Source: a virus. Taken from it: 42,828 nucleotides of DNA. Below the pieces are notes generated by a model. That model was not told where the DNA came from. It saw nothing but the letters and a program-made list of their open reading frames with translations, and ran no database searches. Position numbers and translations under genes: made by a program. The stretch spans positions 1 through 42,828 of the IMG/VR virus record IMGVR_UViG_3300037427_000637; one strand, written 5' to 3'. Shown piece by piece: positions 41,517 through 42,828 of the stretch (its first letter is position 1; every line of letters starts with the position of its first letter).

Positions 41517-41545
41517 TTGACACTCTGATAAATATATCATATAAT
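41517..41545 (+). promoter_or_regulatory. perfect host-type (sigma-70) promoter TTGACA-N17-TATAAT
   Basis: TTGACA at 41517-41522 and TATAAT at 41540-41545 are separated by exactly 17 bases. Transcription should start near 41552, inside the adjacent terminator hairpin. It would drive the coiled-coil protein, the ParB-like protein and possibly gene 13. Confidence 0.75.
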
Positions 41546-41572
41546 AAGGGGGTTATAACAACCCCCTTTTTT
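41546..41572 (+). terminator. strong intrinsic terminator after the 1792-residue gene
   Basis: AAGGGGGTT (41546-41554) pairs perfectly with AACCCCCTT (41560-41568) around ATAAC, followed by a run of T to 41572. Confidence 0.9.
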
Positions 41573-41583
41573 ATTCATCGATT

Positions 41584-41796
41584 ATGGCCAATATGAATAC
41601 CGACGAATTAATCGTTAATTTTTCCACTCAGATGAAAGATCTTATGAAAGAGATCGCTGAGATGGAACAGAAATTAAATACTGCTAAAGAACGATACCTT
41701 AAACTACAGGGTGCAGTTGAAGCATTAAACATTGTTAAAGATCAGGCTGCTCCTGAAGATGAGCCAGTAGAAAGAGAACTTCTTAACGAGAGTTGA
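41584..41796 (+). CDS. small coiled-coil protein of unknown function
   Basis: The 70-residue protein is dominated by one long heptad-patterned helix (residues about 14-52: TQMKDLMKEIAEMEQKLNTA and onward) and ends in an acidic tail (PEDEPVERELLNES). It should oligomerise through the coiled coil. It is the first gene after the terminator and promoter at 41517-41572. Its TGA overlaps the TTG start of the next gene (TTGA at 41793-41796), suggesting coupling. I do not recognise a family. A scaffold or chaperone role near neck genes is possible but unsupported. Confidence 0.7.
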   Translation: MANMNTDELIVNFSTQMKDLMKEIAEMEQKLNTAKERYLKLQGAVEALNIVKDQAAPEDEPVERELLNES

Positions 41797-42209
41797 GCGA
41801 GTGGTACGAACATACTTGGTATACTAGAACGCCAAGAGAAGATGTATTTGGAGATTGGGGATTCCATAAGGAGTTCCCATTTTCTCGTGTCGATATACCT
41901 ATCAAAGATTGTTTACCATATCTAACTGAAGAGAATTTAATCGTAGTTCAATTTGAGGATATTGCTTGGAAAGGAAAGCATTTATATCCACATATGTCCT
42001 TTGATAATTGCCCTTGTTGCTTTGGGGCACGTAAGGATCCTGAATTGTATCCAGGAATTATAACAGATATGTCTAATCCATATAATGACAAGTATAGAAT
42101 GTTGGATGGTAAGCATCGTATAGCCAAGATGATTTCTATGGGTCTAACAGAGAGTCAGTTTTACTTTATACCATTTTCTATATTAAAGCGACATTTCCTA
42201 TCTGTCTAA
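41793..42209 (+). CDS. ParB-like-motif protein with a TTG start
   Basis: The 138-residue protein contains YRMLDGKHRIAKM at 101-113. DG.HR followed by a helix is the core of the ParB/sulfiredoxin-like fold, which in various proteins binds nucleotides or cleaves DNA. The region before it carries a cysteine cluster (DNCPCCFGAR, residues 71-80) that could bind metal, with C40 a possible fourth ligand. The upstream in-frame stop is at 41784-41786 and the first ATG codes residue 68, so TTG at 41793 is the only start giving a full domain. It also overlaps the upstream TGA. The rest of a ParB domain is not obvious, so the activity is uncertain. Confidence 0.65.
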   Translation: MSEWYEHTWYTRTPREDVFGDWGFHKEFPFSRVDIPIKDCLPYLTEENLIVVQFEDIAWKGKHLYPHMSFDNCPCCFGARKDPELYPGIITDMSNPYNDKYRMLDGKHRIAKMISMGLTESQFYFIPFSILKRHFLSV

Positions 42210-42212
42210 ATA
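42206..42212 (+). promoter_or_regulatory. late promoter CTAAATA for the neck gene
   Basis: CTAAATA overlaps the TAA stop at 42207-42209 and lies 23 bases before the ATG at 42236. A GAAGAAGGG purine tract (42215-42223) sits between. Confidence 0.55.
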
Positions 42213-42235: not shown

Positions 42236-42828
42236 ATGGCAAAACCGAGCACGAGAGCAGAATTACAAGCATACTGTAAGAGGCAGTTAGGAGAACCTGT
42301 ACTGCAAATTAACGTAGCCCAAGAGCAGATAGATGATCTGACTGATGATGCCTTCCAGAAGTTCTCTGAGTGGACTTACAACGGTGCTGAGAAGATGATG
42401 CTTAAGCACGAAGTTACTGCTGCTGATGTCACACGTTTTCAAACTCAGAACCAGACTACTACGGTAGCTGGTAGTACAACTGAGTGGACAGAAAGAGATA
42501 ATTATATCCTAGTTCCCGAACACGTATATGGTATTAGCCGTATATTTGGTATCAAGTCTAGTGGTATAAGAGGTAACTTATTTGGTATAGAATATCAGAT
42601 CTTCCTAAATGACTTATATCATTTTGGTGCTGTTGATATACTTAACTACTATATGACCAAGAGCTATCTTGAGACTCTTGATTTTGTATTGAATAATGGA
42701 ACATTTATTCAGTTCAGATTCAATCAGAGACAAGACAGACTTTATCTTGACACTGCTGCTGAAGATATGAAAGCAGGTGAGTTCGTTATCATTGAATGTT
42801 ATAGGGCATTAGATCCTACAACATATAC
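42236..42828 (+). CDS. 13: neck protein gp13 (N-terminal 197 residues; 3' end outside the window)
   Basis: The visible part starts MAKPSTRAELQAYCKRQLGE and continues PVLQINVAQEQIDDLTDDAF. The 'RxLG.PV..INV...QI.D..D.A' pattern is characteristic of T4-like gp13 neck proteins, which with gp14 close the head after DNA packaging and provide the tail-joining site. The following region (YILVPEHVYGISRIFGIKSS) and the Tyr/Phe-rich core are consistent. T4 gp13 has about 309 residues, so roughly a third is missing at the window edge. In T4-like cyanophages genes 13, 14 and 15 usually follow in this order, so gene 14 is expected just downstream. Confidence 0.8.
   Translation, partial: MAKPSTRAELQAYCKRQLGEPVLQINVAQEQIDDLTDDAFQKFSEWTYNGAEKMMLKHEVTAADVTRFQTQNQTTTVAGSTTEWTERDNYILVPEHVYGISRIFGIKSSGIRGNLFGIEYQIFLNDLYHFGAVDILNYYMTKSYLETLDFVLNNGTFIQFRFNQRQDRLYLDTAAEDMKAGEFVIIECYRALDPTTY

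Follow-up and report, generated by a model that had tools for sequence, protein, structure and literature searches.

We propose that a 69-bp intergenic gap in a T4-like marine cyanophage probably houses a self-insulating sigma-70 promoter, that is, a promoter fused to the terminator of the upstream transcription unit and serving a small coiled-coil gene that lies ahead of gp13. The gap, between the end of a 1792-aa virion structural gene and the start of the 70-aa coiled-coil-like gene, contains the sequence TTGACA-N17-TATAAT and, directly adjoining it, a 9-pair stem followed by a T-run (Table 1). The geometry, conservation and recurrence of this arrangement are visible in the sequences themselves, while from anatomy, conservation and recurrence together we infer the start sites, the termination and the timing. 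The tail/fibre unit upstream would end in a terminator whose stem takes its left arm from the initially transcribed region of the promoter. A polymerase arriving from the 1792-aa gene would make the complete stem and U-tract and stop, and a host-type polymerase starting at the predicted sigma-70 position would make RNA without most of the left arm and continue into the 70-aa gene, perhaps extending towards gp13. Stop signal, start signal and leader would all be fitted between the two genes. The spacer DNA is probably also usable by the phage late sigma factor (gp55 type), whose RNA, begun about 10 nt earlier, would have the complete hairpin at its 5' end; in the late phase the outcome may be attenuation, escape with the 5' hairpin, or no use at all.

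Table 1. Features of the promoter-terminator element and of the genes around it (positions in the window).
Feature	Position	Strand	Remarks
Virion structural gene, 1792 aa	36136..41514	+	from ORF list; stop TAA 41512-41514; upstream of element
-35 box TTGACA	41517..41522	+	exact; TTGAC invariant in 12 haplotypes
Spacer			17 nt between -35 and -10 boxes
T4-type late motif GATAAATA	41527..41534	+	within the 17-nt spacer; predicted late start ~41540-41542, ahead of stem
-10 box TATAAT	41540..41545	+	exact; predicted sigma-70 start ~41551-41553
Terminator stem, left arm AAGGGGGTT	41546..41554	+	adjoins -10 directly
Terminator loop ATAAC	41555-41559	+	
Terminator right arm AACCCCCTT	41560-41568	+	
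Terminator T-run	41567-41572	+	right arm and U-tract together 41560..41572
70-aa coiled-coil-like protein	41584..41796	+	PHROG 580, function unknown; first gene downstream of element
138-aa ORF	41793..42209	+	PHROG 35149, function unknown
TCTAAATA, probable separate late promoter of gp13	42205..42212	+	
gp13 neck protein / head-tail adaptor	42236..42828, truncated by window end	+	PHROG 211, E 1e-26

The window, by which we mean the whole viral record of 42.8 kb (37.6% GC), carries tail, fibre and neck genes of such a cyanophage, including relatives of gp25, gp6, gp8 and gp13. The N-terminal part of the 1792-aa product matches the virion structural protein of PHROG 5838 (E 7e-45), and the nearest isolate match of gp13 is the neck protein of Synechococcus phage S-BM3 (62%). 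In most of the clade a NCTAAATA motif lies at about -31 relative to gp13. The distance from the terminator to gp13 is about 320 nt in some promoter-bearing relatives and about 700 nt in others, so the 138-aa ORF is apparently missing from some of them; this pattern of presence and absence suggests that it was inserted between the 70-aa gene and gp13. Inside this ORF, at 41856-41879, there is a second terminator-like stem, which is kept in four relatives (L005, L006, L008 and L009) and built of other bases in a fifth (L012). A SET domain (Pfam PF00856, E 1e-11), of a type found mostly in eukaryotes, occurs in a small protein encoded at 785-1084, near the gp25 gene.

The initial annotation had described a TTGACA-N17-TATAAT promoter ending at 41545 and a terminator stem beginning at 41546, and these coordinates are exact. 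The hexamers match the sigma-70 consensus at 12 of 12 positions with a spacer within the usual 16-18 nt, and this is the sole exact match to TTGACA-N15-19-TATAAT within the window. The stem has the sequence features of an intrinsic terminator, with 5 GC pairs among its 9 and six T residues immediately after it. In shuffled windows we found a mean of 0.15 exact promoter matches, and 13 of 100 shuffles had at least one, so the exact match taken alone is no more than mildly unusual, and the appreciable expectation of such a match by chance in the window counts against our reading. The window has four terminator-like sites with 5 GC pairs on the + strand, and the promoter is flush with one of them. 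We estimate from the shuffles and the terminator counts that an exact promoter would lie flush with a 5-GC-pair terminator by chance with a probability of about 3e-5.

A near-identity search of the region among isolates gave no match, and relatives were therefore taken from IMG/VR. Of the loci L001-L027, all except L018 and L024, which are cut, include the whole upstream region, and in all 25 the element precedes the same 70-aa gene. The 12 haplotypes all have N17, a -35 box of TTGAC followed by A, C or G, and a -10 box of TATAAT or TATACT; the -10 box of L012 is TACAAT. The left arms found among the relatives are AAGGGGGTT, GGAGGGTT, AGGGGGGAC and AGGGGGGC, or TAAGGGGGT in L012, and the right arms match each of them, so that the stem has been rebuilt with different bases and the pairing kept. 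When the two clades are compared, the hexamers are identical at 10 of 12 positions and the spacers at 5 of 17 (Fisher p 0.006). Several of the more distant relatives (e.g. L028-L032, L036 and S-BM3) show another order, a terminator and then a late promoter.

RNA folding agrees with the division of labor proposed above. The folding energy of the stem in the window is -13.5 kcal/mol (z about -4). RNAs with a 5' end at 41552 or 41553 do not form this stem, which bears out the suggestion of the initial annotation that a transcript begun near 41552 loses the left arm and cannot form the hairpin; the sigma-70 RNA is predicted to lack the first 5 to 7 bases of that arm. It had also been suggested that read-through RNA carries the whole stem, and this holds for every haplotype: in each of the 12 the folding energy is -13.3 to -15.6 kcal/mol for read-through RNA and -13.3 to -15.9 kcal/mol for RNA from the late start, and sigma-70 RNA, starting 7 nt past the -10 box, reaches 0 to -2.0 kcal/mol. 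In all these haplotypes the predicted sigma-70 start is close to where the left arm ends. A start one base earlier would give the second-clade sigma-70 RNA -3.6 to -5.3 kcal/mol, still far from the full stem; against the self-insulating promoter, a start a few bases early in the G-run would retain much of the stem. Rfam models run on the element gave nothing above the gathering score and two sub-threshold chance matches only.

A hairpin whose formation depends on the start position has a precedent in T4, where the late promoter of genes e, soc, 49 and I-TevI lies in the 5' strand of an RNA hairpin that controls translation (PMC3014915, PMC2988022). The likeness is that RNA coming from upstream folds and that the 5' arm is missing from RNA begun at the local promoter. 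The T4 hairpin hides a ribosome site and the promoter within it is late, whereas here the hairpin is followed by a U-tract and lies off the ribosome site, and the arm-losing start is the sigma-70 one. Translational control of the kind known from gene e or I-TevI, in which the hairpin would hide the ribosome site in read-through RNA, shares with our element the logic of a start inside a hairpin (PMC3014915, PMC2988022), but we regard its probability as close to negligible: the hairpin ends 15 nt before the ATG and leaves the usual Shine-Dalgarno position uncovered, and no Shine-Dalgarno sequence is visible, the stem included. On account of this separation between stem and ribosome site, translational gating was rejected.

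A scan of IMG/VR for exact promoters with CCCCTTTTT located 8-38 nt further on gave at least 81 distinct sequences. Among the matches listed, 52 of the 81 form a hairpin in read-through RNA and not in the RNA of the promoter itself, 19 form it in both RNAs and 10 form none; the stems of the switch type mostly begin 0-3 nt past the -10 box, again among the matches listed. With a control pattern of equal GC content the switch type was found in 0 of 100; this pattern, AAAAAGGGG, is Shine-Dalgarno-like and therefore controls for the placement of hairpins, not for their abundance. The downstream proteins that start within 100 nt fall into at least 15 unrelated groups, and the ATG is often only 1-3 nt past the matched T-run. 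The fused layout recurs many times without any late motif.

One of the downstream groups is a lipoprotein-like protein with relatives in 408 cyanophage records. We did not find the flush layout upstream of this gene in eight other isolates, nor at the Syn9 relative; three of the eight instead have the -35 box within the right arm of the terminator. In isolates, using a terminator finder relaxed so that 5-pair stems count, we found the flush layout before SSM2_227 in S-SM2 (at about 168,080-168,134), just after psbD in Syn9, and after both psbA and psbD in S-PM2, with a weaker case near SSM2_272 in S-SM2. These three isolate genomes, which are nearly whole, contain the module only rarely, in one or two clear cases apiece. 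Among promoter sites whose -35 box matches at 4 or more of 6 positions, 5 fall into the 0-4 nt bin, whereas other bins hold about 0.25 per genome; the layout is thus enriched but is not the usual form of a promoter. The initial annotation had called an ideal host promoter unexpected in this late region; the promoter is no one-off but a member of a recurrent cyanophage module.

The spacer between the two hexamers also contains a T4-type late motif, GATAAATA, which the initial annotation did not mention. ATAAATA occurs 7 times in the window, always on the + strand and always 10-60 nt 5' of an ORF start, and the same holds for the placement of 3 of 4 copies of CTAAATA, compared with 1 of 41 copies of six control 7-mers. 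The motif in the sigma-70 spacer is one of these seven copies of ATAAATA. A TATAAATA-like motif on the coding strand upstream of late genes, the mark of a T4-type late promoter, is therefore found here. Both ATAAATA and CTAAATA are also strand-biased and enriched before ORFs in Syn9, S-SM2 and S-PM2, and gp55, gp33 and gp45 are annotated in isolate relatives. In the window and in Syn9, S-SM2 and S-PM2 CTAAATA behaves as a second variant of the late motif would, and several late motifs overlap the stop codon of the preceding gene.

The 5' end of a T4 late RNA lies about 6-7 nt past the late motif. A late start at about 41541 would precede the stem, and the late RNA would therefore contain the entire hairpin. 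Sigma-70 and late promoters overlap in both clades, where GATAAATA or CTAAATA stands in the spacer 9-12 nt before the stem, at an offset that differs between the clades; L012 retains the sigma-70 boxes and the stem, and its late motif is gone. No late motif was found in the interval between stem and ATG in the window. Among the matches listed, 115 distinct sequences have a late motif within an exact sigma-70 promoter, and only the window's own family has a flush T-run hairpin that is lost in the sigma-70 RNA. Two claims of the initial annotation are affected. It had named a NATAAATA site as the alternative source of downstream expression, and one is present, but inside the sigma-70 promoter itself. 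It had also described the two elements as an insulator, for which folding, the conservation of the hexamers and recurrence before unrelated genes speak, and against which stands the same internal site; since late RNA from it would keep the terminator, the element cannot be described simply as an insulator of late transcription, and such RNA is not expected of a device that insulates late genes.

The late motif opens the possibility of a sigma-dependent attenuator, in which two starts, separated by about 10 nt, flank most of the left arm, such that sigma-70 RNA escapes and late-sigma RNA terminates. Early in infection the sigma-70 polymerase would start inside the stem and the gene would be expressed, which is compatible with the self-insulating promoter; later a gp55-type polymerase would stop after about 30 nt, shut the unit off and exclude sigma-70 from the promoter. 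We consider this unlikely, although the motif occupies the spacer of both clades, its RNA folds with a hairpin of -13 to -16 kcal/mol, and no further late motif separates stem and gene. A transcription unit of 38 bp has been measured to terminate intrinsically in vitro (PMC6978380); termination of a late RNA at about 30 nt is therefore physically possible. On the other side, L012 lacks the late motif despite its sigma-70 boxes and stem, the offset of the motif is not the same in the two clades, and the late polymerase may escape or a 5' hairpin may fail to terminate in vivo. If the attenuator were real, the change of sigma factor would itself switch the unit off.

Alternatively, overlapping early and late promoters could allow expression that is continuous or of the 'middle' type, and the hairpin at the 5' end of the late RNA would then stabilize the mRNA. 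Such overlaps have been proposed for middle genes of RB49 and S-PM2 (PMC2984593), and T4 gene 32 mRNA is stabilized by a 5' hairpin (PMC8948821). The window element resembles those middle genes in that a sigma-70 promoter and a NATAAATA motif overlap upstream of one gene; a terminator fused to the -10 box, present here, is not mentioned in their description. This reading seems quite unlikely to us: a stabilizer has no need of a T-run directly after the stem, and the fused layout turns up many times elsewhere without the late motif. It is highly improbable that the sigma-70 boxes are a relic or a chance match, leaving the terminator and the late promoter as the sole working parts. Late motifs precede many genes of the window, which is a late region, and the shuffles do produce exact matches, but the hexamers are conserved above the spacer, N17 is fixed in the 12 haplotypes, L012 keeps the boxes though its late motif is lost, and the layout recurs where there are no late motifs.

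Other fusions of stop and start signals were also encountered. Upstream of gp13 in S-PM2, Syn1 and many contigs, the late motif is nested in a terminator-like hairpin, where it occupies the loop or the inner arm, an arrangement found, among the matches listed, at 13 of 724 non-redundant late sites and at 3 of 3801 control sites. Examples of the nested motif are L082:20210-20242, L084:6787-6817, L034:2952-2984, L066:2945 and L078:2949; the stems change on both sides between phages, and late RNA there would be without the left arm. In S-BM1, S-CAM22 and Syn30 (L637, L639 and L641) TTGACA lies within the terminator right arm and the -10 box past the T-run. A further conserved promoter family (L274, L276, L282, L293, L299, L319, L356, L378 and L384) has TTGACA, a TTTATGGTC-like spacer and TATAAT, with a strong terminator-like hairpin 16-17 nt past the -10 box; its own RNA carries the hairpin, which makes it attenuator-like. 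From the flush, the nested and the -35-in-right-arm designs we conclude that cyanophages fuse stop and start signals in several geometries.

Host genes offer a further comparison: in pyrC of E. coli and Salmonella and pyrG of B. subtilis, start choice or slippage at a short run alters a 5' hairpin or a downstream terminator. These are nucleotide-sensing host genes, in which they differ from the window element. Many cyanophage contigs place a terminator and then a late promoter in a short gap, for example after gp23, and likewise stop one unit and start the next; there the stop comes before the start, whereas in the window element the start is inside the stop. A literature search, with most subscription journals outside it, returned no description of a terminator flush with a sigma-70 -10 box, nor of its recurrence. 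The individual parts are textbook material; the fused layout before about 15 unrelated groups of marine-phage genes and in three cultured cyanophages was not found described in this search.

The biology of the host bears on the self-insulating promoter in both directions. Rho is absent from cyanobacteria, which we count in its favor, and only a minority of cyanobacterial transcript ends have the look of intrinsic termination, which we count against it (PMC13289151). A terminated polymerase can slide and then re-initiate at a nearby promoter (PMC6978380, PMC11347151), a behavior that would suit a fused element. The window version, with a late motif in its spacer, lends itself to a clean test of whether the sigma factor decides if an RNA can terminate. 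If these elements work as inferred, prediction programs in which a promoter and a terminator rule each other out would misread the genes behind them, and the phages of Rho-less hosts would possess a compact insulated promoter.
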